DNA of 64,000 nt from Dysidea avara (lineage: Eukaryota > Porifera > Demospongiae > Dictyoceratida > Dysideidae). Shown piece by piece: positions 1,443 through 28,716 of this stretch (positions within the stretch are counted from its first letter, which is position 1; each line of letters opens with the position of its first letter). The notes below the pieces were generated by a model. The model searched no databases. It was not told the DNA's origin and worked only from the letters and a program-made list of their open reading frames with translations. The translations under genes were made by a program, and so were the position numbers. The stretch lies in the NCBI RefSeq assembly GCF_963678975.1, contig NC_089274.1, forward strand, positions 21,103,133-21,167,132, in the 5' to 3' direction.

Positions 1443-4400
1443 ATGTTAATGAGATGGATGCTAATGTGTCTAGCGCTCGGTTCGTTCATGTTACTGTACA
1501 ACGAGGTGGACCATAGTCATCCAAGTGGTCAATACACTCTACTGAAAGTGAGAGGCCTGAATATGTGTGGTGGATTAACACTAGACTATTATACAGTTAT
1601 CACATCGTGTTAGTCACAGTGTCAATTGTGGTGCAGATCAGTTATAATTAACATGCTAGTCTAGTCCTGTATACCGTATATAAAAAAATGTTTGAGGTGG
1701 AAAATGTTCATAGATCACCAAACTTTTCCCGCTATGGTGACTGCCTAGCATCACCATGTGCAAACAGCTAGAGTTCTGTCACATAAATATGAATATGAGC
1801 ACAGTAAACAGTAAGCCTTACCCCTCATACAAATGTTTTCCTCCAAATCTTGCTATAGTCATTCATCTACAAAGCTCAACTTTTAGTTATACGGTAAGGT
1901 AAATGGAGGTAACTCCATGAATATTTTGTGTTCACATTCATAACTTATGATCAACCAAACCAAAATTTGGTTACAAGCAACATACATTTATGTATTCTAT
2001 GTATACCACATTATGAGTGCTTCGACATAGCCATTATGGAGATGTGGCACAAAGCATCTGGCTGTGTCAGAAAATACGTATGGGGTAACTAACTTGGTGA
2101 ATTACTGATAAAGTCAACAACACCTCCAATATTGCTGTAATTCAAGAAAATGATCTTAGTTTGACATGCCAGAAAGGCTAATCAGTCCTTAACTAATCTT
2201 GTAGCACTGCCTCGGAGAGTTTTAAGCTTTGAAATTTCAATGTGCGCTACACAACTTCAATCAAACTGAGCTGGTGTGAAAACCAGAGTAGCTAGGAACT
2301 ACCACTTTGATACAGGTAACCACCATACCTTCAACACAAATATTAAACTATTTCGTTAAGCAGTTTAAGAGTTATGGCCCATTAAAAGTTGAAATTCACC
2401 AAGTGTTTCAAGCAAATTGTCATTACACTACTTTAAAAACCAGAGTAGCTAGAAACTACCACTTTGGTACAGGTAATCTCCATAGCCTAGTGTATCTTCA
2501 TCACAAATATTAAGGAGTTACAGCCCATCTAAATGAAGTTACCCCAGTCATGAAGTTACCTCCATTTAACTTACAACATCCCTTACCTTACCCTTTTGTT
2601 AAACAATTAAAAATAAATAAATAAAATTAATCCTTTAGAACATCTGTGCATGTGTAATCACCTGCTGTTGTGGTTGTTTCCTTGAAAAAGAAACTTTCCC
2701 AGTCTCACCTATCAGGGACATGGTACAGCCTCCTGTGGGTTACTAGTCCTACCCCAGGAGGATTTTCCTGTGTTGACTTAAGTAGCACATGGGTGTCCCA
2801 GTGCTAGTTTACTGGGTAGGCTAGCACAGTAGCCGAATGCTTTTGTGTGTATGTATACATATTTTGTATGCATACTTATGTGTGTCTGTGTTTGCTATTG
2901 TTCAGGGCCTATGGGGGCGATGGTTATGTATATTCAAAGTTTTTAATTACTTAGCAACCCCTTGGCTTTGGGGGCCAAGAGAGTGCTGAATGCATGCATA
3001 CACACAGAGTAGAATTACGTGTTGTACAACCTCCAGCCTGTACCACCCATTATGACGTAAGGTTGACCTTCACAATAAGAAGTGCTGATTATGGGTGTAT
3101 GCTAACTACAGCATTTTCATTGTCTGTTTGGTATGCATATAAGTCCTTGGTGAAGCAGCATTAGCTGTGTAAGTGGCATATCTACAAGTGCCCCTATTTT
3201 GGTGAAATTGATATGATTTAATTAATATAAAACTTATGGTGATACCAGAATCAGTTTATTCTCACAGGCAGTAACATCATTAACAGAGCCAATATGAGAC
3301 CAAACATCTACAGCCTAAATGATGAAGTCCAACTTAGTTTTGTTTGGGACCTAATCATTATAATGATGCAGGCCTTGCTAATGAGGCCATAAATCTTTGA
3401 CACTTGTTATGGTCACAATTATTTTAAAGTCACAAGTGTGTTTGGGACTTGTTCATTGCAATGAGGGGTCTTGTTATGATATATAACATCCTCGGGATCT
3501 ACTCGACTTGATCATTCTAATGTGGTCATGAAATACACCTTAACTATGTTTGTGATCTACCATTAATCAGGAATTGCAAAGTTGAAAATGCTTGTGAATT
3601 GTTACGGTGGGATTCTTTGACATGAAAAATATAGTTTAAATAAGGGAAGGCTATAATCAGATTCTCATGTACCTATGTTTGTACTTGCTAGTTAACTCAT
3701 AGTACAAGGCTTGAGTGATCAACAGAGTGATGTCAATATAAACGATATTTTGTTAGCTGAACACTCCTCAGATGTTAGCTGTACTGAGCCTATAATATCA
3801 TCAACTAAATTCTTTGATGCTATATCAATATTATTGTTATGAAAATATTGTGTCATTTTAAATTTTGTTGATATGATCATATAACCAATGACAGAAACTT
3901 GACATGGTAGATCTTAGCTATGTTTGGGACCAACATGACATGGTAGATCTTAGCTATGTTTGGGATCAACATGACATGGTCACTGCAATGAGGTGGTCTC
4001 ATTACTTCATGAAAGTCACAAATAGCTATGACTTAGCTAAGCACTCATTGTCTCTCTTTCTCTCATGTATTGTTTTATTACTGCTTGATCATTTGCAACT
4101 CACTTCTTAACATTATGACCGTTTGGTTTGACTGTTAAAGTTTCAAGTGTATTTTCCACCCTTTTAGAAAGTCCTCACTATCTCCACTTCATACTGTTTC
4201 ATAACTCCACTTGTGTTTAACAAATTGTCTTTTAGGATGACTGGTCAGAGTACAGGATAAAGCTGTCAAGATATAGGTCTGACGAGATAAAAGCAATGAA
4301 AGATTTACGAGTTATTCAGGACCGGCTGGCACAACGCAATTATACAGGAGATGAAGTAAAACTTACGAAATACAAATCACAACTTGAGAAGTGCGATAAA

Positions 4401-6569
4401 GACGTCGAGTCGCTAAGTGGACAGTTACAATCAGTTACCGGACCTAACTTAATTATAGCCAAGAAGAAGCTTGAGATGAGAAAGGTTGACTGCGCTAAAG
4501 TGGAGAAGTCAATTGAGACCACATCACTGTTGTTGAATGGAAAAACTAAACTGCTCCAAACTCAGAAAGATTTAGATGATAAACTCTCAGGAATCAGACA
4601 AAAGATAAAATACTATGAGGTGTGGACTCTTTGTCCATGTATGGTTGTGATGTTTCCTTACTGCAGGGACATTTGAACAACAAGCACATCTTACTGTATG
4701 GAGAATTAGTAAGTCTAACATATCACAGAGGTGGTTGGTCATACCGCTCTATGATATTGTGTAACCAAACATGTACCTGGATTTATTGGCAAAGTTTTAG
4801 AAATACGAGTATCAGCAGTTATTAACAGATGTATTGTCAGATTAATAACTCTATTTGTGTATCCGCAAGAAGTATGAATAATATTACAGTAGCACTTGCT
4901 TCCTAGCTAAAATGTTGGGGTGGCTAAAAGAGGGCTCTGGGACACTTATGACATGTATATACACACATTAGAATATAAATACTTAGTATCAGGACTGAGG
5001 TGTTGAGTAGGTTGATGAGATGTTTTTATAATGTTTGACTAACCTCCTCTCTGCATTTTGTAATGTCTAACTTGTAGTGTGTATTATAGTGCAAGACAAA
5101 GGAGTCATGTCCACCCTATGTGTGGAGCCAGTGGAGTACATGTACAAAGAATTGTGAGGGTGGACGAAGGTTTCGTAAACCAATGTATGCTTTCTTTTGT
5201 CTCACTGATGACATTTGTAAACAAGTGCCCAGTGATTATGAGGACTGTAATACTCATTCCTGTGGCAACATGACAGCTTGGGATTCAAATGGTACAGTGT
5301 TATAATTAATTCTTGATTCAGATCCCATCGCATTTTTTGACAGATCCTCCAATTAATCCACTCAATCCGCCAATATTATTGGGTGAAGGAGAATATCGTT
5401 GTGGCTTGTGGCAAGAAGACTACATCAAGTTACATAAAGGTACAGTCATACTAAGATAAGACTGTAACTTGTACTCCTTCTTGCAGACATGTTGTCTGGC
5501 CATACAGAGGCTCGCTACCTCGTATACTCCACTGGTAAGGGATTTTACCCCATCCCGGGAGGACTGGCTAGCAGGATAAAGGGGATTACCACTGTCTTCT
5601 TTCTGGCCTTGTTAACCAGTAAGTAAGCCATGTTATGGTGATGGTAGATTCGCTGGTGTTATAGAGAGAGCATTTCTTATTGAGTGGATGGATCAAGAAG
5701 GATTTACTGAAATATTAGAACCTAAATACATTGACTGGTCCAAATCAGAATTCCTACACAAGAGATACTACAAGCGTCCCCCAATTAGAGACATTGGCAG
5801 TTGGCGATCATACCATGTTCTAAACCGAACTGACCAATGGTACAGGGAGACAAATTTCAGTGAATTCTTCAACCTTTCTGTTGAGCTGGTCCCTGGACAT
5901 GGATATGACTTCACATATGCTGTATTGCAAAATGAACACTTTGGCCCATTAATATACAAGTATGGCCTTCATACGATCAAGTGTCGTATATGTTGTGTCT
6001 GGGACTTTCTGTTCAAAACATCATATGCTTTTAACAAGGAGATGGAAGGGATTCTAGAAAGTTTCAAGTACCCACAGAACTCCTTAGTGGTGATGCACAT
6101 TAAAGTGCCTTTTGAGAAGAAAATAGCAGATGTGATAGAATACTCTGTTGGACATCTTCTTTGTGCTAACAAAGTAGTTCGTGAGCTACACATGGCTAAT
6201 TTTACTAAGACTATCACGTCAAATCAAAGACTACTCCGGCACATGATCGGACTGAAGAATAAAGATGTCATTGTACCGACATACACAAAGGCAGCAACAC
6301 AAACAGTACATTATCATATAGGACACCTGTCACCTACCCTTGACCCCGCCATTTTGAGAGGTGTCCTTAGAAACACTATGATCGATTTCTTCCTCCTGCT
6401 CAACTCTACAGTGATTATCAGGGAGAAGGGACACCAGCACTGGTTTGCGTCAACAGCAGAAGCAATACGACACCACTACCACCCTGATAGAGTGACATAC
6501 ATGGTGAACAATGAATCTGAAGCACCTCACTGTAATAAAAGAACACCAATAATAGCACCTCTATACTAA
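1443..6569 (+). CDS. Type II membrane protein: coiled coil, TSP1 repeat and fucosyltransferase-like domain (upstream paralog)
   Basis: Exons: 1443-1547, 4236-4619, 5090-5291, 5344-5439, 5487-5618, 5665-6569. Together they encode 607 aa in one frame, with junction phases 0,0,1,1,1. Residues 1-35 hold a short hydrophobic anchor starting MLMRW. Residues 36-163 are a charged coiled coil. Residues 164-230 are a thrombospondin type-1 repeat (WSQWSTCTKNCEGG, cysteine-rich). After a Pro/Asn linker, residues 263-607 resemble GT-B fucosyltransferases: RYLVYSTG, then GGLASRIKGITTVF, then RAFLIEW, and a C-terminal block around FFLLLNSTVIIREKGH. Golgi or cell-surface glycosylation is inferred. The likely GDP-fucose loop reads HIKVP instead of the usual HxRxGD pattern, so activity is uncertain. 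There are many N-x-S/T sites. Start uncertainty: ATG 1443 is the first in-frame Met, but the frame is open upstream to 1356. An ATTAAA poly(A)-like signal lies at 6573-6578. The downstream gene at 7947-28716 is a paralog with the same domain and intron-phase order. Confidence 0.72.
1893..2592. repeat. Probable TIR element with an internal tandem duplication
   Basis: The left segment GGTAAGGTAAATGGAGG (from 1893) recurs inverted near 2550-2592, where the right end includes TCCATTTAACTTAC and ACCTTACC. Inside, a block starting AACCAGAGTAGCTAG appears at about 2280-2327 and again at 2441-2488, with a few changes. It lies in the long first intron of the upstream TSP1/fucosyltransferase-like gene. 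No transposase frame was seen. Confidence 0.4.
3903..3974 (+). repeat. 36-bp tandem duplication
   Basis: A unit beginning ACATGGTAGATCTTAGC occurs twice in immediate succession with one base difference, in an intron. A third partial start (ACATGGTCACTGC) follows. Looser echoes of TTTGGGACC...ATGA occur from about 3340, suggesting an old minisatellite. Confidence 0.7.
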
Positions 6570-6572
6570 TGT

Positions 6573-6578
6573 ATTAAA
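6573..6578 (+). terminator. ATTAAA poly(A) signal variant
   Basis: ATTAAA lies 4 bp after the TAA stop of the upstream TSP1/fucosyltransferase-like gene. It is the only hexamer close to the stop. The next anchor exon begins only 154 bp after that stop, so the 3' UTR must be short or overlap it. Confidence 0.35.
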
Positions 6579-6723
6579 TACTATTTACACCAGAAGCCAT
6601 TTTGTATCTATGTATGACCTCGTATCATACCGAAGTGCTTTACGTGTTGGAAAGGATTTCTTGAACGCTGGGGGCCAGCCTTAGACTAACTGTGGGGTAT
6701 GTTACACATGTTAGGGTCGAGAG

Positions 6724-7569
6724 ATGCGGATAGCTGGTCGCAGGCGTTGCTGTGGGATTTCGTGTAAGCGACTGCCTTTACTAGTCACTCTGCTCGTATT
6801 ACTGACAATGAACTTCTTCTTGTGGTGTAACGTGTTTGGCGCAAAATGCGCCCAGATGGGACCAGTGTCACTAATACTGGTACGCACTATATAACTAGCT
6901 ATTTATACCAGACCCTGCATGTAGTAAACTGGGTTTCTTCCCTATACATAGGGTACAGAACCGGAGCATACAAGCAGAATAATCATGGGGAAAGACATTA
7001 AAAGAAATGGCGATGGCGAAGCTGACCCTAGAAAAAATCACACAAACTTCCATGATCACGTGAGAGAAATACAGCAGCTAGTACAGAGGCAGGCAGTGTT
7101 CAACAGTTCATCCACTATGTTTAATGTGATGAACTATAGTGCTCTAGAAGTGCCGACCATTAGTGTGGCAGACAAGAAGTTCCTCACCAAGAGAATACAG
7201 AACATGTCCGACATGGTGAGAGAGTATGAAATTGATGAGATGATGAAGCTAATTGAAAAGAACGAACACAATCTTAAGAGGGTGAACATATCGATTTTGT
7301 TGTCTAAAGAAAATAACGCTAATTTTGAGAAGAAGGCTGCTGAATGCAAGGCACAGCTTGATGAACTTGTAACTAAAGCCAGTGATATGGGGCTTGAAGA
7401 TGACAGTGAATACCACCTGATGATACACAAATTGCTTGATGACTTGGACAAGATTGATGAGAGGATGAAGAAATATAACATGTTGCTAGAGAAACAGAAA
7501 GGCTTAATTATACGGAAACTAGAACTACAACAAAACTTGACATTTTTTGAAAGTGTCATTCACAGCTGA
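6724..7569 (+). CDS. Orphan membrane-anchor plus coiled-coil cassette of the TSP1/fucosyltransferase-like family
   Basis: Exon 6724-6879 starts MRIAGRRRCCG. It has a basic tail and a membrane segment at about residues 17-35 (LPLLVTLLVLLTMNFF), ending in phase 0 at CTG|GTACGC. Exon 6952-7569 (acceptor ATAG) adds about 205 residues of Lys/Glu-rich coiled coil, similar in position and length to the coiled-coil exon of the upstream gene, then a TGA. Read to that stop, it is a 257-aa type II protein without TSP1 or catalytic domain. The upstream paralog splices at the matching point (KYYE|GTGTGG); here FFE is followed by AGTGTCA. The only GT there, GAAA|GTGTCA after 7552, is phase 1 and joins in frame to the exon at 13143. 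It may therefore be an alternative 5' end of the next gene, a short independent gene, or a decaying paralog. Confidence 0.6.
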
Positions 7570-7946: not shown

Positions 7947-10900
7947 ATGGCGAGGTCGCCGTATGCTATTGCTACCAGCCCGGCAGAGAGCAGAGGCTCC
8001 CAGCGACATAAAATCAACTTTTTTACAAGTCTGAGAAGATGGCGCGCTCCAATGTACATATACCTGATCATATTCGGGATGATGAATGTACTCTGGTACT
8101 CAATGTTGTCATGGTGCTTGTCTTCAGGAGGATGCTATGCCACTGCGAACACTGAGAGTGCTGTGATAGAGCGTCATGTACCAGTGAGTGATTTGTAGTT
8201 GCTGTTTAGAGAATTTTCCATGGGGAATAATACAGCATACTGGACATTGTCTCATGAGGCCAGACCCAACTCTGCTGGCACTTATAATCTCTATTTAGTA
8301 AGCACCATATAGAGAGGAGGGTCTGGGCATACAGAGCTAATACAACAAGGTGTGAATGACAAGTGAACAAGTGTGCACTAGTCTTTGTGGCCAATCATCA
8401 GATAAACAGAAGGACTTATCAGTCCCCTTTCCCCACCCAGACACACAAAAAACTGTCCAGTTTATGTCAGACTGTTGGCCCATTAGAGGAGGTAGGAAAT
8501 GCTACTTGCTTAATTGCATATTATCACGTGAGTCAATAAAAGTTATGTACTTTGCTTTGTAAGGGCCTGGATTTACTTCTAAAGATTTACTGAGCCCTAG
8601 TAAAAACTTCTGATTATATTGCAACTATTGAGACTCGTTGTGAAATTGTAATTATGCAATTATAGTAAGTGGTACGTACATATGTCCTACCTCCTCTGAT
8701 TGGCCACCTTGGTCTCCCTTCACAAAAGGAAGAAGAAAAAAATTCTAGCTGCACAAGACCAGCCTGGTAGGTGCTCAAGGGGTTCACAATTACTTGATAT
8801 CTTGTGCAGCTTGCTAGAAATCCAATAAAAATTTTCATGCTTTTTCATTTACAAGCTCCAGTCTTTTTTGTTTAAGGGCCAATTTGTGATGTGACGCATC
8901 TTATATACGTCCTATGACGTTGCAACAAGGTAGAATTCTTATAATGGATTTTCCACATGCTACTCATTAGGTACTAAGCAGTGTATAATTTATTACCACA
9001 AATTGTATGTATTTTTGCTCCTAAATTTTGCTATGAAATGTTTGGGATGTATATAGAAAGTTTTAGAAACTCTTGTGAATTTTTTTTTTTTTGTGATAGA
9101 ATTTTGACAAATTGTTTAGCCAAACCAATTTGTATTTGATGGGGAAAAGCAAGCTTTTAGAGAAATGCTGCTTTTGTGTCAGATTTGCCATATTTTTCTC
9201 CCTCCAAGCTATAAGGCTAGTTGACATAGATAGCTATAGAAAAATACTTTGTTGGTATTACAACTGTGGCAGAGCCACCATAGGAGTTCTGAGAGGTTCG
9301 ACCTTAGGCAGGATGGTGTTGTTAATGGAAAACAACCACTGCACACAAACACCAGCAATGTTCATTGTAAAGAAACCAAGAACGATGTCTATGCAATGCC
9401 ATGCTTCATTCTGTATTACTAAAATGTCTGTAATGCACTGTATTGTAACAAATGAAGGAATACCTTTGCTGTCATGTTTGCTTCCAAGGTTCGTAAACTT
9501 TATATAATACAGAATAATGCAGTGAACTGTTTATCTATCTCGACTATCGTCACAGTTAGTCACAGGTTACCGCAGACTCTTTTGATTAGGACAACAGTGC
9601 AGGTGATTTGTAGTTTTATGGAAAACCAGCCCATAACCCATAGCTGAAGAGCCCAAAGACACATGATTGTAAACTTGTAAAGCTGAAACTAATATTTTGT
9701 TCAGGTATTTGTTATAATGCCAACTAAAATTTCCATCATTAAATACATGCAGTGTCTAGTTTGTATAGAAATGTTGCTCTAACAAGCAAACCAAATGTTG
9801 TGGTCAGAAGGTATCACTGTTGTTAGCTAGGGAACAAAAGTTATTCACAATGTGTAGGAGTGCCAGCATTTTTGATCTGTTACACTTCTCTAGTTTACCA
9901 TGGAATGTACATACTGTTTGCCAAATGAGCAAGTGTTTAGTCCCAGGCAATATTCCTTACTACATAGTTAGTACACTTAATTTTACTGTTCTGCTGAATT
10001 AAACTCTTTGCCAGTCAAACCACATTAATATACTTACAAAACATACATGGTAATCTCTGTAGCACCGGCCTTGTAAACTGTTGAGCATCTTGAGTAATTT
10101 GAGTGGTCTAATAACTAAGTTTGATTGTGGTACTTAGCGCAAACAAGCGCTTGGCTGCATGGTTGGTGAGTCATCGTGTATGCTAGTTTCATCTACAGTT
10201 GATTTTTGTTATTGTTCCTTTGGTTTTCAACAGTGTGTATGGAAAGTCAGTTTTCTTTTTAGCTGATATCTAAGTCTCACACTCCATCTGCTGTCCAGCG
10301 ACATAGCCAAACCGTTAGTAGGTGGATTAGGGATCAAGTAGTGAAACAAGGGAATAGCTAAAAGTAGCAAAACGAAAGGTAATGCACTATATACTAGTAG
10401 ACATTTAATCCCTAATTTAGTCTATTAAATGTCTGCTAGTATAAATAGACATCCTCTCTTGTTTTACTACTTTAGCTATTCCCTTGTTTCACTACTTTTT
10501 TTTTTTTTGATCCGTAAATCGTCATTTTTCCTTCTAATTGTAGCATAATTATCACTACTGAACCCATGAATACTAATAAAAGTCGAGAGAAAGAATGAAT
10601 GATACTACATTAAAAGAAACAATGGTGCCATAAAATTAATTTTGGGTCCAACGTTCACCCCACAATCAATTACTGAAAAGTACAGTGACCATTACACTTC
10701 ATTTTAAGCTGTACGGAGTTGCATGTTCCTTGTCCATAGGATTTGATGCACACCTGAAAACCTTAATATTATGAAATTGATGTGCTACACACATAGTCCC
10801 CGAGTGTGTTATAAAGAGTAGTCTAGTAGAGTACAGTGTGTGTAGTACAGTATATTAAATGTGCTAGCAATTGTGAGATCACTGAAATTGTTGACGTATC

Positions 10901-13900
10901 CTGACTAGTTACTATTTTTTATACAGCTCAAGAACAACCCGTGGTATGTTGATGACCCCACCAATGGTGAGTACTAATATGGTGTACTGTATAGTGTGTT
11001 TAGTAACTTGTAACCAACTGGTGTGTGTCTATGTACATTTACTACTGGATATAATAGTGATGTATGTAGCAGTAGTATTAGTAATGATGCACCGATTATG
11101 ATTGGTTAACATCACTATTGATTGGCTGATAACCTGATTACATAATATGAGACGGAACTAACAAAATCTTGTACCAAAACACGCTTGGATTGGTTATCAG
11201 TGTCAGCCTCATGCAAATTTAAATCTTTTATCAGTGTGTATGTAAATCTTTTATTGTGTGTAAATGTGAGAAAGATTTTTATAACCAGTATAATGTGGAT
11301 ACTTACTCAAGTACTGTATTAAAGCTGGGTTCAAGCTAATGCTGGGTCCTAAATGAAGAAGGCCAGGGGCTGCTAGCTTTCAGCTGGTTCACAAGTGGAT
11401 TATAAGAAAGCATCTATACAGTACTCCCACCTCACATTTCAATCTTTCACATTTGTCAAACTGCTAGCTAATACACATCAGATCCATGATGAAAAATTGT
11501 ATTCCATAGCTGTACCGTCTACTACGTACTTACCAGTAAGCAAAACAAGAGGCAAATCTGGTGGTCTATTAGATAGATATTCAGTTTAAAAATTTTTTTT
11601 TTGTCTACTGAAGTGAAAATGCATAATGCAATTTATAATTATGCAAACCAGTCGGGTTATTACTCAGCAGATTACATGTAAAGACTTATGAAAATTGAAG
11701 CCATACAGTATAGTTACAGCACCCTTAGCTGGCCATAGGTTACACTATAATAAGTAAGATCCATTAATACTAGTATTTCCTGCATTCCTTGATTGCTGCC
11801 GCACACCTGGTGGTGACTATTCAAGCTTCAAAGACCTTCAATTCCTATACTACTGCCAACACCTGGTTGATTTCTCCACAATTTGAAGTTGTCAGCTTCC
11901 ATCCGTAGAAAAGCTGTATACTTTGGGTTAAGAGAAATGTCCCTTGTTAATACAGACAAATTCTTAAATGGACCGTCTTTTGAGATGCTGTACATTGTTT
12001 AACTTGTGTACAAGTATACTTCATTCTTCCTAAGTACAATGATGAAAAGCAGCTGATCTCAAAGTACCCATTAAAAGGAGGTTTCACTATAGTTGATTGA
12101 CAGCAGCTTGTGCGTTGCTGTGGGCTGGAGACCATTTTTCAACTCGCTGTATTCTTTGTTTGTATGTTTTAATGGGAAGGCGATGATAGCCTATTTCTAA
12201 CAAAGAAACACTATCTTTCTCTCTTACTGTAAGCATCTATTAGTAGTGATCGCAATTTGTAGGGTTGTGTTTACACCTGTCAGTTGTAGGTCCTACCTCG
12301 CCTTGATTGGCTTTGGACATTATTTTGATATCGTCTGGCTGTGATGAAAGTGTTAAGAATTGTTGATAGTGTAGTTAAAGGGCTGTGTGTATCCATCAGA
12401 AGCTGCACACCTGTTGTACTGGGCTTCTCTCTATTACTAGATGATATGAGATGTGACATTCCTCGAGTGATTATCTGTAGTTGTGTAGAGTGTGATGTGA
12501 TGTAGTGTTTGAAAGATTGTTAAACAGTGTATTGGTTTGTGAAAAATGATTGTATAAAGTTGACACAGATATTTTTGACCCACTGAGCAAAAATTGACTG
12601 TTTTCACAAAATTCTGGTTGTAATAAAAATGTATTGAAATAAACTGGGTAAAAATATGCATGCTACATAAATAGTTTATACACTTTGTTTCGTGTTCGTA
12701 CAGCAAGTTATGGGCGCTTATTTTACTATGTGGTAGAAATAAAGTTAAATTACTGTTTCTCCTAAACAAGTGGTTACAAATTCACATATTTTTCACATAG
12801 TAATTTTACCATTCAATACTCATAACAGTTTCTGTTATTACTAATAGGAATAGGACAGTGGACAAATATGTCCTTATTAGTGGATTCATGGTTCTAAATG
12901 TATCATGAGAACTTTGATAAATACAGAATTAGCACAGATAAATACAGAATTAAAACATCTGATAAATATTTCACATTTCATTGTGACAACAGGAAGTAGA
13001 ATAAGGTGCTCTGCTACTTGGGTATCCAACTCATCACAGCAGTTGTAAAACATTGTAATTGTATATGGCTTGCAGAGTTTTGTCTTGTGTTTCGATTAAA
13101 CACCACCCTTACAAGTTGTATACTTGTCTTGTGATTTATTAGGCTTGCCAAGGGAAACTAAGTCAGTTGCTACCACAAATGCCACTAGTGCTTCTACTGA
13201 TAGTACCACGGAAACCAATCCAACTACCGCCACCCCTTCATCATCTCCTACCACTGCTACTGATGTTACCATGGAAACCGACAAGCCAACTGAAGTTGTT
13301 GATAGTACAACTAGTGTCAACAGTTCTGTGTCAACAGGAGAGATGGTGAGTTAATGTATTAGTATTGGGTTAGAAGAATTGGATGAAAATTTATAGTCAC
13401 AGTATATTGTGGAAAAAATTACTAATATACACTGTATTTTTTATGGTTGGAAAAACCACTTTATTTGTTTCACGTGATTAAATAATTGACCATTCTATCT
13501 CGATTTTTTTATTTCAAGTTGGTATGTAACCTACATTGTCTACTAGCATCACATTACACTAAAACAACACTAGTATTCTAGGGCGAGAAAAAAAAAGAAG
13601 CTGTTGGGTTAATTATTGCGTGATTATCGTGATACTGTAATATCATTTCATCAAAAATTTGTGTCACAAGCACCGTCTCATTAATATATCTTCACAGTTT
13701 TACAATAATACTGAGTTACTGCAGAGGTTGGTCACATGTCGTATCTATATGATGTGTTGCCTTGTGTGGCTGTAACTAAACAGGGTGCCTTTTTTTGTTT
13801 GTTTGTTTGTTTGTTTGTTTGTTACAGAACCTATTTCTAAGCCAGTCACCTTCAAGCAAAAACTTCTTGGCCATAAAGTAGGTGGCTGCTGAAGACAGGT

Positions 13901-15410
13901 GATTTACTACATAAATTCTTCGCTTGGGAATTTTAAGTGGTCATTATGGAGAAATGGCCATTATTAACAAGTGGCCACTAAGACAGGCTTCACTGTACCA
14001 TTTATAAAGTCTTTACAAGGGTTATGTATTATGTAGCCTCAGGGCAATGAATTACGCTCAAAACTTTCATTTTATTTTACTCTGAATTTCTTCAAAAGGT
14101 TGGTGTTATGCTTGTATTATAAGTTTGACTTTTAAAATTAAGGCAGGCAGGAAAACTATTTTTTAGTTGGTAGGTTGGCTGTTTATTACAACAGAGTTTG
14201 TGCTGACTGACTGACTGATAGGTGACTGCTCTATTAGAGTATTTTGATTATAGCTTGTAGGAATAATACTTTGGTTATCTGAACCCCAATGATCTCATAC
14301 AATGGTAAAGGTGTTATATAAGTAGATAACTAAAGCTGTAAAACTTTGAATGATCATTTATTCTAACAGAGCAGTCATTTCTAGAGTCTATGATACTCTT
14401 CTTTCAAATTTCCAGAATAATTCTTTTACCCTCATCATTGTGCTAATTATTTGGGCACCCCTACTTACTTCTTAGCTAGGAAAGCCATGTTGGGTTGGCT
14501 GAAAGAAAGGGTTCTGGGACATATAAACTTTGTATTGATACTGAGGTACAGGTTGAGTTGAGATCATGAGATGTTTTTCTGAATAGTTGGGTACCAATTC
14601 AAACGATAATCTGGATGTATACAAGGCTTTACTCTGATAGAACATACAGCTGCTACCAAACACTCTAACAGAGCAGACATTTCTATGTTGTGTGTGCTCA
14701 GACTTGCTGTTTGCACTGAAATACTCTAATAGAACAGTCATTCCCATAATCAGTGTATATTGAAGTGGTAATTTGTTACCTTGTTTGTTCATAACAGTGT
14801 ATATACCTGATCATTACTATCCTGTATTATATTGTGAGTGTTAATTGCTGCAGTACTGAGCTTACACACAGAATGAATTTTTGCTTGGAAAGATTCTCTT
14901 TGCACAAAATTGTTGGATGCGTGTTGTTAGCTGCTTGCAAAGTAAACTTTTCATATGCCAACCATTTTCAGTGGGACCAACTAAGTCATCACTAATAAAC
15001 CTTTTGTAATTTTTCCGCAAGTGAAACTTTGTGAAGTATTAAGCTTAAAAAAGTTGGAGCTCTCTAATGCACTATTGATGCCAGACCATTACTAGGAATA
15101 CACACGCACACGCACACACACAGACAGTATTTATTGTGTTAATGTAATATATGTTAAACTACTCTAATAAAGCAGTCGTATTACTCCTACACAGTGCAAG
15201 ACAGTGTGTCCACCGATAGTATGGGGCCAGTGGTCAATATGTAGTAAACACTGTGGGGGAGGTCGTCGGTTCAGACATGCCACCTATCAGTTTGTGTGTA
15301 CTAATTCTGAACTATGTCCACCTAATAAAGTAGAAGAGGAAGCTTGTAACACTAATGAGTGTCTTGTGAAAGATGACTATGGTGAGTGTATATTATTGTG
15401 TTTGTGTTGT

Positions 15411-15470
<60 letters not shown>

Positions 15471-18400
15471 GTAGTGTGCATGTGTGTGTGTGCATTGTGC
15501 TGTAGTGTGTGTGCATTGTGCGTGTGTTTATGTACAGTACAATAATTGTCTCAGCAATCAATCTAGTCACTATGGAAAATATAGACGATTCCCATTACAA
15601 ATGGAGTGAAGCCATTGGCATGTGTTACTGTGAATCGACACCTTGCACTGTCAGCGAAGCTAAATAGGGACAAATAAGTCCATGGTGCATGCAGTGTATG
15701 TATTGTGGTATGCCAATAGGCACCTGTCAGGCTGAACCAACATCTAGTAGTGAGAAGATAATCAGGTCTGTGGCCTTAGCTGTTATTGAGTTACACTCAT
15801 CTGAAAGTCAGTCAGTCAGCAGAAAATTTCACTGAATATATATATTTAAATTTCTTAAGAACTTTTTGGAAGCATTTCGGGTTGTACTGAAGGTGCATGC
15901 AGGCCTTATCAATTTACTGCCAAGGCACCATGAAGGTATTGTGAGGCTGGTTTCTGGTCAATATTTTTTTGTGAAAAGTTGCAAACCTCTGTGATCCTTA
16001 ATATACAAATAGTACTGTATGATAATGGACTGCTTTTTCATTGGTGAGAAACTGTAAAGATGGTAATAACATGATAAATATACTGTTGCCATAAACTATA
16101 TGTATTGTTGGACACATGCTAAGACAAGTGATCGTTTATTCTTCCTAGTAACAACAATAATAACAATAGTACATGACATCACCACTGACCATTATACAGT
16201 GTTGGCACCAGTGTTTACCAGTGTTTAATCAAACTCTGGTATTCCACTATATTCTGTTCCAGTACCTGGGTCCATGTGTATAAGCTCTGCTTAAATATAA
16301 TACATTAGTGTACATATGTACACAGGTATACATCATGACACATTCAGATTAGTTTCATAGACTAATAGAAATTTGTGTGTTAGTGATGCTAGTTACTATG
16401 GTAACTAGTGGTCACAACAAAAAGGTGATATCATAGATACACACACACACATACCAGTGAGGTCTTGTCTTTTAGGCTTGTAGGGTTAGTCAGTGTCCAG
16501 AGCATGTTTTAAGAGTAACCCTTAAACCCAAAAACTGTGTGTGCCTTGTAAGCACTGTAACTTTCAAAGAATCCATCCCATGGCTACGCAATTTATAGCA
16601 TTCTACTTGTGATGTAACAAGGATTAAAATGATACCAAGGGTTTTTTGCTAATGTTAAACAGTGAGGCCAAAACCAGCCGTGTAAGTAACTTTTTGGCAT
16701 AGAAATATGCAAACCCTTTACATACCTTATAAAATGATCCATATCTTGATGGTAGTTGCTCCTATTAACTTGCAATAAGTTCCATTCATTTCACCATAAA
16801 ATTTTCTGTCAGGACATACATGACTCACGTGAGTAAACCCCACAATCAAAAAATTAAAGATGTGGCAAGAATTTTGAAACATGGAGATGCGACTCGCTGT
16901 TGTTCATTGCTTCATAACAAGTAAGCTGCTGTAGTTACAATCTTCTCCAAGTAGCCCAGTGAACAAACTTTAAACAATGTGTTCTTTTAGGCTATAAGAA
17001 TTAAGTTACCCCACCTATCGTCGCCATGCTTGCCCATATTGTGTAAACACGCATTCCCTAAAAGTTCTTTGCGAGTTTAAGGGTTAAATGAGAGCATGTG
17101 GACACTTGGTTGGAACTGCAATGGTTATCATACACTACGATAGTAGTGTATAGTAGGGACCACAAAGGAGTAGGTGTGGCCTACGAAATAATATCACCCA
17201 AAAAACAGCCACAATTTCCCCTAACGACGATCAGGCAATATTGGTTAGGTGAAACTAAGCCCAAACAAGCTTTCAGATCGACCCGAAATGGTTTCACCAA
17301 GTTGCTACAGAATTTTTAAAATAATTTATTTAACAGAATTTTCTACTGACTGAGTAAGTATGTAACTGACTGACTGACTGATGCCTTCAGACAAACGTAA
17401 CTTGATAACGGCTAAGGCTACGGGCTTGATTTTTTCACTGTTTGACGTCGCTTCAGCCCGACAGGTGCCTTTTGGCATACCACAGTATGTACAATGCATT
17501 CTTCATGGACTTACCAGTGTCCTCCTTTGTGTCCCATTCATCTTTGCTGACAGCGAAAAGTGTCGATTTGGCGATAGCACATGATGGCTTCCCTTCGTAA
17601 CAGAAATCGTCCGTATTTGTCATAGTGGCTATTTTGATATCAGAGGTAATTGATATAACTGGGGTGCGCAGCACCATTTCTTTCGGTATGCGTGGATTGC
17701 AGAGGTGCTTTACGAGCAGTTATTGATTCGAAATGCTGTGTAACGGGTTGAACATAGCTGACAACGAAGCGTAATGGATACTTCACTTTTCAGACGATAA
17801 TTGAGGCACACAGTGCCATTTCAGATGCGGTATGCGTGGGTTCACCAGTCATAATTATTATTTACAAAAAAAAAAGTTAACAAACAAGTACACAGAAAAA
17901 TTTGGAATTTTCAACTAGAGTAGGGACCATAGCACATCGATAAAAAGTACTGAAACAAGCTGGAGTAGTGCACGATATCAATTCACAGTAAAACAATATG
18001 AAGTGTTATATCCCTACTGTGCTCAAGATACCATATAATGGAAATGCACAGTAGGGATATAACACTTCTTATAGTTTTACTGTGAATTGATATCGTGCGC
18101 TACTCCAGCTTGTTTCAGTACTTTTTATCGATGTATTATGGTCCCTACTCTAGTTGAAAATTCCAAATTTTTCTGTGTACTTGTTAGTCATAGTCTCAAA
18201 TTCAATCACTGACAATTATAACCGCATTTGCTTTGATTAGTCATTTAATATTAGTGTATTGTAATCATGGCTTTTCAAAATCGATTGTGATACCACTCAA
18301 GTGTGGAAGGTGTGTAGCTTTTAACTAATTAAATGTGGTATTTTGTACTTTTTGAATATCTAACATCACTAACTGACAATATGCCAGCTATTTAATAAAC

Positions 18401-21400: not shown

Positions 21401-24400
21401 CACTCTATCATATTATGTTTCACACACACATTGCCAGTATATATGCAGCATTGCTATTTAAGTTCCACGTTGATCCAACACTGTTATACATGCAAGACAT
21501 GGGCAGTCAGGAATTTTCTGCCATTGTTTGCACCCGGTGTCTGTTTGTGGTGTGCATGCATACATACTCATGTGAAGTACATGGATTTTACTTACATTGG
21601 TACAGTCTATTCGGCAAAAACCAGCTGGTGATCTCAGTTTCTGCACAACAAACACACACTTCACACACACATAATGCTTTCTGTTGTTCAGTAACTATTC
21701 AGTTTGTTATTTGCGGCTTTCCAACTATTAAGTGATAATCGATAGTTTATGACTGATCAAAGGGGTCCGATGAATGGTTCACTTCTCATAACTACCACCA
21801 TATTGAATGGTGAATAACTGATCATTGTAGTGCTAGTGGAGCATATTGCTGGAATGCAATGACATATTCATTGTAGGGGGAGCACTTACTGTTGTATTGG
21901 CCAGCCCATATACGTGCTATTGTGAGCATGCAGATAGTGGGACTCTAATGAATATTGTAATTCCTTTAGTAGATTGTTATTTCTTCAATGATGTATTGAG
22001 GAAAATGTAGAGAGGCCCTTGGTGTGTTGATGTTTCCTTGTGGACTTGTATCATTTTCTTGTGAAGTTTTTCACTTCACTTCATTTTGCATCTGTCAGTG
22101 TGTGTTTGTGTGTGTTGTTGTTTTTGCATTCATGTGTGTGTGTAAACATGCGTGCGTGTGCATGTTGTTGTTTTTGCGTTCGTGTGTGTGTTGTTGTAGT
22201 GTGGTATATGTAATTTGGTGTGCAATGTTTTGTGTGTGTGTGTAGCATGATCTATACATCACACATATATTGTCATGGTTACAGGTCCACTGATCCCCTA
22301 CCCTAATAACCCACTCAACCCGGCAATATACTTGGAGAAGTCACCCAACTCTACCTGTGGTACATGGGTATCCGAGTATGCTAGACTACATGATGGTAAG
22401 TTAACCAACCATCTTGACCATGTTTCATTTGTGTACAAAGTGACTTACCTAATGTATGTGGCTGCTGCTGTAGTGGACACCTGCTTATTAGTAAAGTCAG
22501 TGAATTTTCATGGATAAAGTTGGTGGCCACACATCCTACCTAGTTTATAGTTGTTTAATAGTATTTTCAATCTGCTATAACTCACCAGGAGCCAGGATCT
22601 TCAGTGGTTTTCCAAGTAACTGTCTGCCTCTTCACCATCATAATAGCTGTTGCTAAGGTGGCTGGCCTCTCATTAAATTCATTGGTTGCTATGTTCAGCT
22701 GGTTGATATAAGCATTGTTAGTTTATTGTAGTGAGGTCATTGTTAGTTGAAACTTGTTGGCTATCACATCCTGCATGTGTGTGTGTGTGTTGAGTGTGGG
22801 ATGTACAGTGTGTGTGTGTGTGTTCCCATCGTGATATTGTAGTTGGTGATTTTTAGTTGGTGATTAATTAAGTGAGAAAATTGTTAAACAGGTTACTAAA
22901 TTTAGTGTGTGTGAATGTTCCTCCTCTGTAATATTCTGTATATTACTACGTAAGGTGGACAACATGTAATGCATGTTTGTGTAATATTCATTATATACAT
23001 TTGCACACTATGCGTGCACGCATGAACATGTACGCACGCACGCACACATGCACACGAACACTACACAATTAATATGCATATTTCTTATGTTTAGAAATCC
23101 TATCAGGCAAGAAACCTCCTAGATACTTGATCTACTCAACAGGCAAGCCGGGTAGCTACCCACCAGCGGGAGGGCTGGCAGATAGACTGAGAGGAATCAC
23201 CACACTATTCTACCTTGCTGTAGCCACCGGTAAGTTACTGTTGGCTGGCTATTTGTAGGTGGCATGTATCCTTGTACCCTCGGAATGGTCTGGTGATCTT
23301 GAGCATGAGTTCAGCATGTGACATTTAGTAGAGTATTTTCGAAGCAGAAAATTTTGCAGAAGAGGCAAAATCTGAATTTTGAAGGCTGCATGTTTGAAAT
23401 CTGGATAAACAGAAATTTTTGTGTCACAAATTATGGAAATATGTGATAAATTAGAATAGGTAGTCAACAGATTCTAAACACACAGAAAGTGTTTATGGTA
23501 ACAAAGTAGTAAAGTGCCGCTGCAAAATTTAATGATTCCCAAAAGTATGTCCTGAATTAGAATGGCTACAAGTGTATATAGTTAATAATTCTTCTCAAGG
23601 CTAACATGACACAGAGAGTGTTTATGGTAAAGGTTAACCAGATGTCATGTAGTATGCTTCTGTGCTGCCTCATTCAACCAAATACTTTATGTCCTAAATT
23701 AGTCCTAAATTCCAACAATTTCATCAGGTCTTATAAAAGGCCAATAACACTTAAAAGTGTTTATGGTAAAGGTTGTTCAAAAACAATCAAACTGGATTAA
23801 ATGTTCATTCAATACATAGGGCCTGACCACCATGTACAGCATATAGCCAAGTTTTCTCTGAACATGAAGCCCTTGTTTTGTCATGGTGGTTGCCATCATA
23901 AGATGAGGATGTTATCTTTAACTGTTATATTACATAATACTGGCAATGTGGGGTCCATCTAAAAATCAGTGTTCCAAAATGGTTTATCCAACAATGTCTT
24001 CATTGCAGCCCTACATGTTATTTCTGTGATCTTGCATTTTATTGATGTGTTTATCCTGAGTACCTGAACATGTCTGGGTTACCTACCTTTCCTGTTTTCT
24101 GGGGATTGACAACACAAACTGTAATCGTTGTAACTACGTAGCTAAATTCATTTTATGATTGCTTTTTTTTTCCTGAGCATATCAGCTGTGCTGTCTGCTC
24201 AGTAACAATAATAATAATAATAACTACTCACAAAGAGTATATCCACACCATTTAATGTTTAGTCAAGTAGGAACTGTGCACTTAACTGTGACACCCCTGT
24301 TAACCATGACCAGTCTATTCTGAGGTTTGTTTACTGCCTTCAGTTACAACATGATGTGATATGAGGTCACTAACTTCCTGTAATACTATCTGTGACAACA

Positions 24401-27400
24401 TTTAGGATGTGCTCTATCACATGTCATCTATTATGACACTTTGTGGATGCTACCTATAGTGAAACATGTCTTTATAATAAGATGGCTAACTATCTTTCCA
24501 CCATAGCAGTTAGTCGTCGATTATAATTGTACTAAGTAAACAGATTAAATTGGAATAATCAGTTGCATGTGTGTCCCCATTAATTACTCTTGATGATTCT
24601 CATTATCAACAAGCAGTTTATAGTGGGGCATCTCCTTTGTGCAGTTACAGATAATGGTTGGTTGGTACTGTGGTCTCCCACATGCTAGGAGATAGTTTAT
24701 CTGATTGTATTAAACATTATCACCTAATTGGTGAATTGACCACAGCAAGTAGTGTGTGTATGTGTGAGGCCTTCCTAGCTGAATTGTGAGTTGACAAACA
24801 GTCAGGGATTCTGTTGGCATTCCATTCACTACTGATATTACACCACTTAAGCCAGTCTCCTTCTTGCTGTCCCACACAATGGCTGCTGTTGTTGATGTCA
24901 GCTAGTAGAGGTGGGTGGTGAATTACTCCACATTAGGGATTAGTTTCCTTTGCTGAAGTACAGAGTACTTTGATTAGCTCACAACTTTGATGATGTATGA
25001 GGTCGTATTACCTCATTTTGTAATAGTCAGTTTATCCATTATCAGTTGCGGATCCATCCTATTAGGGAGATAGGAACTGGTGTGATGATAATTCCTGATG
25101 ACCTGTAAAATGATTCCAATAACTATTAGTGTGGTCCTTTCAGTATTTGTAATTTTATTATCGTGCATGTCTGTGTGTACGTGTGTACGTGAATGTTTTG
25201 TGTGTGTACAAGTAGTATGTGTCACAGCGTGTACATAAATAATATCCTGATTTTAAAGGTGTTCTAAACGTCCTATGTACTAGAGGATACTTTGGAACCT
25301 TAACTAATTATATAAGTGTCCTCAAAGTAAACGGCTAAGATACAGTGTACAGTAGTCAGTTTGCCAAGCTACCTTGTTCATAAAATACGCACCCATTTAT
25401 CTCGTAATGGCCATCAGGAACAAATTAGTTCTAATTTCTTTGAAAGACCACCTTCATCAAAAAGATACCTTTGTACCAACCTAATTTCCCATGATGAAAA
25501 CACAATACCTAATATTATAAGGTTTATGTCAACTCCTTTGAGCTAAGGACGTATTCAAATGCCTACACAATGCTATAGCCTTTAAAATATCATAATAGTA
25601 AGATGGTTGTGTATGGTGTATTGTGGCACTGAAAGGAATCACAGGAGGTTTTGTAACCAATACTACTGTAGCCAGTACTGAGTAGTACTAGTAATAGGAT
25701 GACCAGGTGTGGTATACTCCTCTGGGCTATACTATACTAGCTGGCGCTGCTAAGATGACCTGAAACTGAATATCAACAATAACAATAATTATCTGGAGAC
25801 AGAGTTGCTCAAGGTGTATATACTTTTAGTGAATGTGGTCTGAATATTTCTAGAACGATAATTGATAAACCATGTTGTGATGTTAGGTGATATATGAATA
25901 TGTGTAAGCACACAACATGTACACACATGGGATGTGTGTGTACAACAACAGGCTTCAGTGTGTATGATAGCAGGTTTGACAAGTTGAGCAGGTTGATTCA
26001 ACTTGATCATTGTCGTCATATAGTGGGTCTTATATTGAATGGTGCTCCTTGTAAGGAACTGTTACCAGCTCATGCTCTTCCTGTTTGTATCGTTGTGTCC
26101 ATTTTCCTGTTATGAATTCCATCATTAATAATTACCTGTTATTTTTACTGGTACACAAACAGGTTCTAAACATAACACAATCGACAGTACACAAACAAGT
26201 TCTAAAGAGCCGCACAGAGCGCCAGTCTCATGATGATCTAAAGCAGTGTTATGGATACCAGTGTGTGTTGTTTAGCTAACAGTGCTATTGTGAAGCACAC
26301 TTGTTTATAGGATACAGTTTACTATTGCCAGCTTTGTAGTGTTGCTATTGATCAGTGTACTAGCAGTCATGTAGTGTTTCCCTTTTGGGAATGAGCATTG
26401 ATGGTGGAATTTTAATAGTGTGGAGGAATGAATAGGAAACTCTGTACATTGTTAGCCATCCCAATGGGATCTGTTGTAGAGCAGCCTATTGTGAACTACC
26501 TTCTGGTCATAATATAATTACTTGGAACAGTTTAATTTTGTAAATGTTATGTATTATCTTCAAAAGCCTCAATAGACTTGTTATGGAACTTGGTTTATTT
26601 GCTTAAGTATAAAATATGTGTGTATGTATGTCTGTTATATCTGTCTGTCTGTTTGTGTGTATAGTGCAATTTTTTTTTATTCCAGACATTTGGGACCATC
26701 TTAAGTGTTCTTATTGGTGGGGTGCCCTAATTTCAGGTGTCTAAATAATGCAAATGGATCATAAACAGGTATCCTAGTGTCCTTACAAATAAGATCTCAG
26801 GGGTAAACACCAATACAAACGGGACCATAGACAAGTATCCACATTTCTATGTGTCCTTGGGGTTCCATCATTTGGAGTGTGTGTGTGCGTGTATGTGTTA
26901 TGTAGTGTGTATTTGTGTGTGTTCATGCTTACGTGCAGTGTACATATCAAGATAACTCACAAATCAGTCAAAGTACACATGTAGGATACACCGTGTGTGT
27001 GGCTCCGGCCAGGCTTGCTGTGTTGGGGAGTAGACGGTTGATCTTTGATCTCATCACGAAGTAACGTAATCCTGCCGGTTTAGTAGGCTGCTAGTAATCT
27101 TATCTGACACCTATATGGACATTGTACTAAATCAGAAGAAGAACTAGAGTTTATTGAATTAGCAGTAAAGGTTTCCAGTTGAATAGTAAGGCAACCTTGC
27201 TGGAGAACTTGCTTGTAATGCCTTGTAAGAGTTGGTCAGAGAAAGATAAGGAATAATTACTCACTTGTTTACCAGACCAGTAATACCACATCACACATCA
27301 CACTACATCACACATCACACTACATATAGGGCTGAGGTGTTAATACCTGGTGGGTGATCAGTGGTCATCTCTACAACAAACTGTTAATACCATTATATGC

Positions 27401-28716
27401 CCTGTAGGGTGCCTCTGGAATGTTAGCACTCAATTGTGAGTGAGTTCCAATGATAATTCAACCCCCAGCCTACTTGCTGTGTACAAGCAGTTTATGTAGC
27501 TATTAAACTTTATCACCTCCTTCACCAAGTTGTTGTAGGATTGATCCCACGTGTGACCACAGCTTTGCTGTAGTGGCAACTGGTTAAGGGGAGTAGATCA
27601 TGTCAAAACTAACTGCTATGTTTGGTCAAACTACTTCCCTAACTGACCACACAGCAATTCATGGTCAACATGAAATCACTCTTACTACCCAAGAGAGGTG
27701 TTGTGGGCAACGTGATAATAGGCCCAGTGTTGTTTGTTGCTATTTACTTTTGTCATCACATTCTTTACTGTTTATTGTTGTTCGTGTTCTCATCAAAGGT
27801 ATGTTGTGTGTTCCCCCCTGTAGATCGAGCCCTGTTGATAGAGTGGTTGGATCCTGAGGGATTGCATAATTATTTTGTGCCAAAGATTTTTAACTGGGCG
27901 AATATGGACGCCATCAAGGACCTGCCAAGGAATAAGTCACGGATTCATGACATCGGCAGTTGGAAGGCGTGCAGCAAAGAGGGCAAGTCTGGTAGTTGGT
28001 ACATACAAACTGACTTTCATAAACTGTTCACTGAGCCAGTGGAAGTGGTACAAGGTCACAGATACGACTTTACATATGCTCTGATCAGAAATGATTTCCT
28101 AATGGATCGTTATTATGAACTAGGTCTTGATAAAATCAGGTGTTTCTTGTGCTGCACTTATGACATATTGTTCCGGAGAAGTAAAATGTTTGATGAGTGG
28201 TACCAGTCGATGATGCACACACTAGATATTACCAACAAACCATTACTTACAATACAGTTACGCAGTGTCGGGGTGGACACTGATAAGAATGTTGAACAAG
28301 CTAAGAGCTACCTCAAGTGTGCCAAAAAAGCAATTGTTGAAAAGGACCTTGGTGACAACACCACCATTGCTTTAGCCTTCAATTCCAAAGTGACATACCA
28401 TGTCATTTTCAATGCTATGAGAGCAGCAGTGACAAGGATCAACATAGTCAGTGCCATAGAACGTACGACACACCTTCATCTCGGTAACCTCCCCACTGAT
28501 CTTAGTGTTGAAGTGATGCAGGGTATTCAAGAGGTCACTTTCCGTGACCTCTTTCTTTTGACCAATGCTACAGTTATTGTGAGGAACAAGGGACACTTGG
28601 CATCATTTGGAACTGTTGGTGACGCCCTGCGATCATTCTACTCTACACAAAGGACCACTTTCCTAGTGTCTGAGGACTCTTGTAAACTGTACAATAAACC
28701 TGACTTCATTGAGTAA
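7947..28716 (+). CDS. Type II membrane protein: Thr/Ser stalk, TSP1 repeat and fucosyltransferase-like domain (downstream paralog)
   Basis: Exons: 7947-8183, 10927-10966, 13143-13345, 15195-15381, 22285-22395, 23095-23229, 27824-28716. They give 601 aa; phases 0,1,0,1,1,1 all agree. Residues 1-34 are a basic cytosolic tail, 35-57 the anchor (MYIYLIIFGMMNVLW), 93-160 a mucin-like Thr/Ser stalk, and 161-222 a TSP1 repeat (WGQWSICSKHCGGG). The rest is a fucosyltransferase-like GT-B domain with GGLADRLRGITTLF, RALLIEWLD, a possible donor loop IQLRSVG, and a C-terminal block around DLFLLTNATVIVRNKGH then SFG. The stalk replaces the coiled coil of the upstream paralog. Introns are 0.7 to 6.9 kb and repeat-filled. 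Golgi or surface location follows from the type II layout. The exact glycosyltransferase family (GT37-like or another fucosyltransferase clan member) is inferred from motif spacing, not from a search. Confidence 0.72.
8184..10926. other. Intron 1 of the downstream TSP1/fucosyltransferase-like gene
   Basis: I see no exon here. It contains an inverted pair around GAGGAGGTAGG (near 8486 and, inverted, 8688) enclosing about 220 bp, probably a small TIR element. It also holds the fold-back element at 10331-10512. Confidence 0.45.
10331..10512. mobile_element. Fold-back element (MITE)
   Basis: The arms are long inverted copies. The left begins GGATCAAGTAGTGAAACAAG; the right, reverse-complemented, has the same sequence with a longer A run inside GGATCAA...AGTAGTG. 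The two arms meet near 10412. Non-coding; sits in an intron. Confidence 0.65.
10967..13142. other. Intron 2 of the downstream TSP1/fucosyltransferase-like gene
   Basis: AT-rich sequence. No exon with matching phase or similarity to the family was found, and no clear terminal repeats. Confidence 0.4.
13346..15194. other. Intron 3: motif cluster and (GTTT)n tract
   Basis: It holds a (GTTT)n run at 13796-13823 and five of the CTCTA-N-TAGAG-type motifs within about 1 kb: 14222-14247, 14361-14380, 14661-14680, 14720-14743 and 15159-15180. This is the densest cluster in the window. No coding exon was seen. Confidence 0.5.
15415..15470 (+). repeat. (TG)n microsatellite
   Basis: Uninterrupted TG dinucleotides about 30 bp downstream of the TSP1 exon donor. 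It produces meaningless Val/Cys or His/Thr open frames on the two strands. Confidence 0.95.
17097..17870. repeat. Suspected dispersed repeat, CpG-richer than surroundings
   Basis: This block contains ACTGACTGACTGACTG, several CG dinucleotides (ACGTCGCTTC, GTGCGCAGC) and paired echoes of GGTATGCGTGG (about 17684 and 17830) that differ in texture from the AT-rich intron around it. It abuts the fold-back element and shares AGTAGGGACCA with it. No coding capacity was recognised. Assigning it to a repeat family needs a genome search. Confidence 0.35.
17883..18185. mobile_element. Large fold-back element with about 145-bp arms
   Basis: The left arm starts AACAAGTACACAG and includes TTTTCAACTAGAGTAGGG. 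The right arm is its near-perfect inverted copy ending CTGTGTACTTGTT. The arms meet near 18035. One arm of the same family recurs alone at 54418-54508 in the PLP/M6-like gene. Confidence 0.75.
22396..23094. other. Intron 5 of the downstream TSP1/fucosyltransferase-like gene
   Basis: It contains short (TG)n runs (near 22776 and 22810) and a CACG/CACA-rich stretch (23010-23060). No exon was seen. The acceptor TTTAG at 23094 is clean. Confidence 0.5.
23230..27823. other. Intron 6 (4.6 kb) of the downstream TSP1/fucosyltransferase-like gene
   Basis: Mostly unremarkable AT-rich sequence with TG-rich patches (25140-25230, 26875-26930). The block 26670-26870 (GGGACCATC..., CAGGGGTAAACACC, GGGGTTCCATC) resembles the internal parts of the CAGTGGA-type MITEs elsewhere in the window. 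An open frame from 27661 runs into the last exon with a hydrophobic stretch, discussed under findings. Confidence 0.45.

Follow-up and report, generated by a model that had tools for sequence, protein, structure and literature searches.

How is a protein to be understood in which a fucosyltransferase and a thrombospondin type-1 repeat (TSP1), normally enzyme and substrate, are united in one chain, and in which the TSP1 is missing the known acceptor site? The question is raised by a locus of the sponge Dysidea avara, which we analyzed within a stretch of 64,000 nucleotides (hereafter the window; assembly GCF_963678975.1, contig NC_089274.1, positions 21,103,133 to 21,167,132 of the forward strand; positions below count from its first letter). 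A sequence-only reading had described two tandem genes here, each predicted to encode a membrane-anchored TSP1 followed by a fucosyltransferase-like domain. We call them A and B. The account that we favor, with moderate confidence, is that they are tandem paralogues and make up a divergent branch, equipped with TSP1, of an expanded family of FUT8/GT37-type fucosyltransferases. Their donor site would be partly lost, A being most likely non-catalytic and B at most an altered transferase.

Structure of genes A and B

Gene A (1443–6569, six exons, 607 amino acids) and gene B (7947–28716, seven exons, 601 amino acids), both on the + strand, were rebuilt base by base from the window DNA. All modelled introns are bounded by GT and AG, and both reading frames close in register. 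With A as the query, BLAST aligned the two proteins at 37% identity over 436 amino acids (E 7e-99), a stretch that starts at TSP1 and extends almost to the C terminus. Wherever the two genes share a junction, its phase is the same: 0 to 1 across the TSP1 exon, 1 to 1 across the linker exon and 1 to 1 across the glycine-loop exon, with a last exon that enters at phase 1 and runs to the stop. The frames, splice sites and mutual identity thus uphold the prediction of two genes that each join TSP1 to a fucosyltransferase-like domain, and the matching of intron phases claimed earlier holds on the rebuilt models. A search for further copies within 30 kb upstream found none (best E 1.8).

The TSP1 exon of B (exon 4, 15195–15381) scores 27.6 bits against Pfam TSP_1 (PF00090; E 3.4e-6), above the cut-off of 21.6. 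That of A (exon 3, 5090–5291) stays under the cut-off, with 11.6 bits and E 0.33, and was recognized through its likeness to the B repeat (29 of 66 aligned residues identical). Each repeat has eight cysteines and a WxxW motif, WSQW in A and WGQW in B. Symmetrical 1-1 modules are the usual type in exon shuffling; the TSP1 exon of A and B, asymmetrical with phases 0 and 1, differs from these. Next comes an exon encoding an NPLNP linker and the start of the C-terminal domain (A exon 4, 5344–5439; B exon 5, 22285–22395), then one encoding the glycine-loop block, GGLASR..ITTVFFLALLTK in A (exon 5, 5487–5618) and GGLADR..ITTLFYLAVATD in B (exon 6, 23095–23229). The remainder of the domain is encoded by the last exon (A exon 6, 5665–6569; B exon 7, 27824–28716).

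Could the fusion be an artefact of gene modelling, with TSP1 and transferase-like exons in different transcripts? The models were derived from genomic sequence alone, and an intron of 6.9 kb separates the TSP1 and linker exons of gene B. Yet the introns that follow the TSP1 exon of gene A measure only 52 bp (to the linker exon), 47 bp and 46 bp, leaving little room for separate transcripts, and the two copies, though 63% of their aligned residues differ, have the same exon order and phases. We regard such an artefact as extremely improbable. These features support the prediction that TSP1 belongs to the same genes as the C-terminal domain.

Identity of the C-terminal domain

The domain was placed through relatives in the host genome (550.8 Mb in 108 contigs). 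A search with XG_FTase (PF03254, GT37) returned 11 places, all below threshold, and 8 of these lie in open frames of 350–457 amino acids; nine of the 11 loci were read (L011 and L016 were left out). All seven relatives checked in Pfam list XG_FTase below its cut-off (E 1.6e-4 to 0.011). One of the seven also lists O-FucT (PF10250, GT68) at 6.5e-5, again below cut-off, and L027, checked beside them, is a separate O-FucT. Elsewhere in the genome, O-FucT pieces above the cut-off occur on C1, C5, C9, C13 and C15 (L019–L030). The relative P0003 passes Pfam FUT8_N_cat (PF19745, GT23) with 30.2 bits against a cut-off of 27.6, and itself finds 39 places in the genome at E ≤ 0.01, with E at or below 1.6e-5 for 34 (a count that includes P0003 itself and two pieces of one gene). 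The family is large and locally clustered (C13 at 11.8–12.5 Mb, C1 at 7.4–24.5 Mb, C5 at 6.5–27.0 Mb; loci L031–L060). We compared 27 relatives, each of ∼350–505 amino acids with the domain in one open frame. An alignment of A and B matched this set over 301 columns (hhalign E 2.5e-19, probability 99.2), and a reversed family control gave 0.36; the E values of these hhalign family comparisons are pairwise and do not come from database searches. Singly, gene A matched P0003 over residues 250–527 (BLAST E 9e-10, database size set to 1e6).

Profiles that included the relatives reached solved fucosyltransferases. Searched against the PDB, a profile of six relatives matched both FUT8 (3.9e-5) and AtFUT1 (0.052), and fucosyltransferases accounted for 11 of its 13 matches at E ≤ 10. 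With A and B added, these values became 1.8e-6 and 2.8e-4, with fucosyltransferases making up 12 of 14 matches at E ≤ 10. The best FUT8 alignment has independent E values of 5.2e-4 for its strongest piece and 53 for the glycine-loop piece, so the whole-sequence value leans on these two pieces. Eight relatives matched AtFUT1 plus AtFUT4 over 262 columns (hhalign 2.1e-7, run without a reversed control); for the 27-member set the match was 8.8e-6, in the N-terminal 37 columns only (reversed control 0.12). On these profile comparisons, membership of the A/B domain in the GT-B fucosyltransferase clan can be considered established, nearest to its FUT8/GT37 side. The clan proposed earlier is thereby borne out, and the nearest solved relatives within it are FUT8 (GT23) and AtFUT1 (GT37), not the TSP1-modifying POFUT2 (GT68).

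By themselves, A and B show a similarity to solved fucosyltransferases that falls short of significance. Pfam gave no match naming the domain, whether on the whole proteins or on the isolated domain. For the N-terminal domain fragment of A, XG_FTase was the sole Pfam match (E 0.019, 14.0 bits, missing the cut-off of 23.4). From B, neither the corresponding fragment nor the glycine-loop block alone listed any family. The XG_FTase cut-off was reached by neither protein nor by any place in the host genome. FUT8_N_cat was not listed for A or B, and O-FucT was not listed for either at E ≤ 10, a level at which the HMMER filters drop most weak matches. Against the PDB, the A fragment placed AtFUT1 chains first at E 0.2, with an LRRTM chain just behind at 0.27. 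An A+B profile of the glycine-loop block also placed AtFUT1 first (E 0.11), with AtFUT4 at 1.2 after unrelated chains, and the third-motif block alone retrieved no fucosyltransferases. A CSD_RNase_II match on A (Pfam E 0.0013 to 0.011, below cut-off) was rejected because the paralogue B lacks it. Epoxide hydrolase was likewise discarded, as it appeared only through chance-level matches of the A+B whole-domain profile to the PDB.

Several results weigh against the placement. That same whole-domain profile retrieved no fucosyltransferase from the PDB at E ≤ 10. The direct match of A and B to AtFUT1 and AtFUT4 is confined to the glycine-loop block (E 0.00039); for the C-terminal half, eight local and global scores against the two plant enzymes, measured in standard deviations of 1000 shuffles, ranged from -0.7 to 1.1; hhalign gave 0.52. 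The link to AtFUT1 therefore runs through the relatives. The 39 places found by P0003, in a search made exon by exon, include neither A nor B, and AlphaFold on the last exon of B together with that of A (a two-sequence alignment) returned an unusable model (pLDDT 33). When the last exons of A and B were searched against the genome, only A and B themselves were among the best-scored candidates (E ≤ 0.001; E ≤ 10). No relatives were found in prokaryote or viral contigs, a weak test with two short peptide patterns per scan.

Within the family, TSP1 seems to be limited to A and B among the loci examined. A profile of the two repeats found no further TSP1 in six frames of 60 loci, of which 41 (repeats counted) came from the XG_FTase and P0003 searches, taken with ∼1.5 kb on each side; gene A's own copy, present in L002 and L006, was recovered as a positive control. 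The presence of TSP1 and a fucosyltransferase-clan domain within one chain invites the idea of a TSP1-specific O-fucosyltransferase, a membrane-bound analogue of POFUT2 acting perhaps on its own repeat. The O-fucose motif of TSP1 is Cys-x-x-Ser/Thr-Cys (PMC10191134, in excerpt). At the corresponding position B has CSKHC and A has CTKNC, with His and Asn in place of the required Ser/Thr, and the motif has no match anywhere in either full protein. The repeats are thus predicted not to be canonical POFUT2 substrates, nor obvious substrates of their own domain. The missing O-FucT listing also speaks against the idea, as does the lack of POFUT2 chains among the 14 PDB matches of the profile with A, B and six relatives. 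A POFUT2-like role is accordingly very unlikely in our estimation.

Donor-site residues and divergence of the pair

Does the domain still work as a transferase? Conservation in at least 26 of the 27 relatives defines 24 columns, of which A keeps 13 and B 12. The FUT8 alignment superposes the His-x-Arg of the family on the HVR of FUT8, whose arginine we take to be R365. This residue is the putative catalytic residue of FUT8 (PMC7014118, in excerpt). The Arg column is occupied by arginine in all 27 relatives and in B (Arg451), and by lysine in A (Lys453). At the His column, 26 of 27 relatives have histidine, and so does A; B has Gln, as does AtFUT1. Both Gln449 and Asn491 of B differ from the relatives. 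Four further positions, each invariant in the 27 relatives, are changed in both proteins: the second Gly of the GxG glycine loop is Ala; an Asp on a later strand is Asn (Leu in AtFUT1, in an alignment of eight relatives with AtFUT1 and AtFUT4); the Asp of HxD is lost, in a region where the A/B alignment is less sure; and the first Ser of the third motif (SSF/STM) is lost. At the next column of that motif the relatives have Ser (14) or Thr (13), B has Ser and A has Trp. Two Cys columns and one Asn column have also gone from both. The columns that remain (Tyr, His, Gly, two Arg, Pro, Trp, Phe and two Cys) are likely structural.

Because several residues invariant in the relatives are replaced, the earlier label of transferase survives as a statement of clan and becomes doubtful as one of activity, above all for A. 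The product of gene A is probably inactive, a pseudoenzyme; that of gene B could act with an altered donor site; and one or both of them have probably ceased to be ordinary enzymes. A known enzyme tempers this interpretation. AtFUT1, which is active, also has Gln-x-Arg, and it has Ser-Leu where the relatives have Ser-Asp. The changes in B, whose IQLR resembles the IQVR of AtFUT1, need not therefore abolish activity.

A tree of the family unites A and B in a fully supported clade, placed on a long stem (1.85 changes per site) outside the remaining members; support for the node joining the two other groups was 80/53. Their own branches measure 1.21 for A and 0.70 for B. A second tree of 11 rows again united them, and their exact place is unsure since long branches meet there, as the program warned. 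Nonsynonymous (dN) and synonymous (dS) divergence between the two, estimated by NG86, was 0.61 and 2.18 in the TSP1 exon and 0.63 and 3.22 in the linker plus domain, with dS near saturation; the linker and domain were taken together, the domain alone not being computable.

These observations bear on the alternative that A and B are both active Golgi GDP-fucose transferases, in which TSP1 is an accessory domain of a FUT8-like core and serves for docking onto acceptor glycoproteins or matrix. Clan membership agrees with it, as do the catalytic Arg and AtFUT1-like motif of B, the plausible type II anchor of B (see below) and a dN below dS across the shared region, read against near-saturated dS. 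It must nevertheless accommodate the loss from both proteins of the glycine-loop Gly, the later-strand Asp and the first Ser of SSF/STM. The Lys of A counts against it too. PDB 5kx6, an AtFUT1 chain, has Lys at the same Arg (position 366 by count). We judge this alternative unlikely, though it deserves serious attention.

Predicted membrane placement, proposed role and known systems

The 5' exons were modelled from frame and splice consensus alone. Exon 1 of A (1443–1547), with a donor site and no support from relatives, would encode a short cytosolic end and a hydrophobic stretch; this is short, the most hydrophobic 15 residues by computation being 5–19, and could be an anchor or a signal peptide. 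Exon 2 (4236–4619; an open frame with acceptor and donor, phase 0 to 0) encodes a charged stalk of 128 amino acids that looks coiled-coil-like by eye. For B, exon 1 (7947–8183) encodes a basic N-terminal tail and a hydrophobic stretch (residues 36–58) that plausibly resembles a type II signal anchor. A short stem exon follows (exon 2, 10927–10966), the least certain of all and placed by frame and splice sites only, then a modelled Ser/Thr-rich stem (exon 3, 13143–13345). The anchors of A and B agree in position only. BLAST with A as the query begins at TSP1; with B as the query it extends ∼73 residues further upstream, and overall identity falls to 32%. Thus, of the parts once said to be shared, TSP1, the NPLNP linker and the C-terminal domain stand, and anchor and stalk have a common layout without demonstrated homology. 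The anchors and conserved cysteines, together with glycosylation sequons (8 in A, 6 in B), suggest that both proteins are membrane-anchored in the secretory pathway, with TSP1 and the GT-B domain facing the lumen or the outside.

Between the two genes lies a single-exon open reading frame (6985–7569, +) for a coiled-coil-like protein of 194 amino acids. Kinship with the stalk of A was rejected, as the score was reached by 403 of 2000 shuffles, and by 721 of 2000 that kept the hydrophobic pattern. Within the large gene B intron, a long inverted repeat (∼17880–18185) resembles, by eye, a small palindromic transposon. Adjoining gene B on the opposite strand is a single-exon protein kinase gene (29143–30180, -; Pkinase E 8.2e-54), and farther on, three open reading frames (56048–60235, -) match successive parts of the RAI1-like nuclease family and are probably exons of one gene.

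Under the favored account, A and B would be membrane proteins of the secretory pathway that hold a GT-B domain on a stalk behind a single TSP1 repeat. The repeat most likely binds protein or glycosaminoglycan partners instead of accepting fucose, and its binding would bring the glycosyltransferase domain, with part of its donor site lost, to the bound partner. A most likely binds without catalysis, as a pseudoenzyme, a lectin or a regulatory partner helping B, if the two pair at all; B would either transfer sugar through an altered donor site or bind only. More tentatively, the pair may be receptor- or lectin-like, a membrane GT-B domain that is partly or wholly non-catalytic and coupled to TSP1, with B possibly active and A its pseudoenzyme partner, drawn from a large uncatalogued FUT8/GT37-like family. 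Of the two roles offered by the sequence-only reading, the enzyme-derived surface lectin (or a different non-catalytic function) now appears at least as likely as a Golgi enzyme docking through TSP1, which is only partly supported. The fusion makes it testable whether an accessory domain targets a glycosyltransferase or marks its conversion to a binding protein. It also draws attention to a large family of genes within a single animal genome, scarcely recognized by Pfam, that has features of both the FUT8 and the plant FUT1 families. Open-access literature, which excludes most subscription journals, yielded nothing of apparent relevance on a TSP1–fucosyltransferase fusion, sponge fucosyltransferases or animal GT37; the claim of an undescribed arrangement stands to that extent, absence elsewhere not being established.

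Among the close relations are the members of the same-genome family (L008–L018, L031–L060), which have the homologous domain and several of which start, by eye, with a hydrophobic anchor or signal peptide. They differ from A and B in having a single-frame domain (27 open reading frames), no TSP1 in six frames of their loci and the full set of conserved residues. POFUT2 is an ER enzyme without a TSP1 of its own. It shares a structural clan with FUT8 (PMC7014118, in excerpt), and hence with A and B, and is connected to TSP1 repeats as its substrate (PMC10191134, in excerpt), but no sequence match to A or B was found by Pfam or PDB profile.

AtFUT1 and AtFUT4, xyloglucan and arabinogalactan fucosyltransferases, are predicted type II Golgi proteins of a family, GT37, that has been termed plant-specific (PMC7900004, in excerpt); XG_FTase domains have also been reported from fungi (PMC10481521, in excerpt). 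Their glycine loop, GLGNR..LASVFLYALLTDRVLLVD, matches the GGLA(S/D)R..ITTxFxLAxxTxRAxLIE of A and B. Spacings from loop to Arg and from Arg to third motif are 185 and 99 in AtFUT1, and 165 and 94 in B. Unlike A and B, the plant chains examined have no TSP1, and their C-terminal halves align directly with those of A and B at chance level.

FUT8 is a type II Golgi protein; the family profile matches it in the donor-binding half (E 1.8e-6). Its SH3 domain lies at the C terminus, whereas TSP1 precedes the catalytic domain in A and B; of His-x-Arg, A has only the His and B only the Arg, and both have lost the ATD Asp and the second Gly of GxG. FUT8, too, has an accessory domain beside its catalytic core, and an N-terminal coiled coil (PMC7014118, in excerpt); with these two additions, its layout is the closest known to that of A and B.

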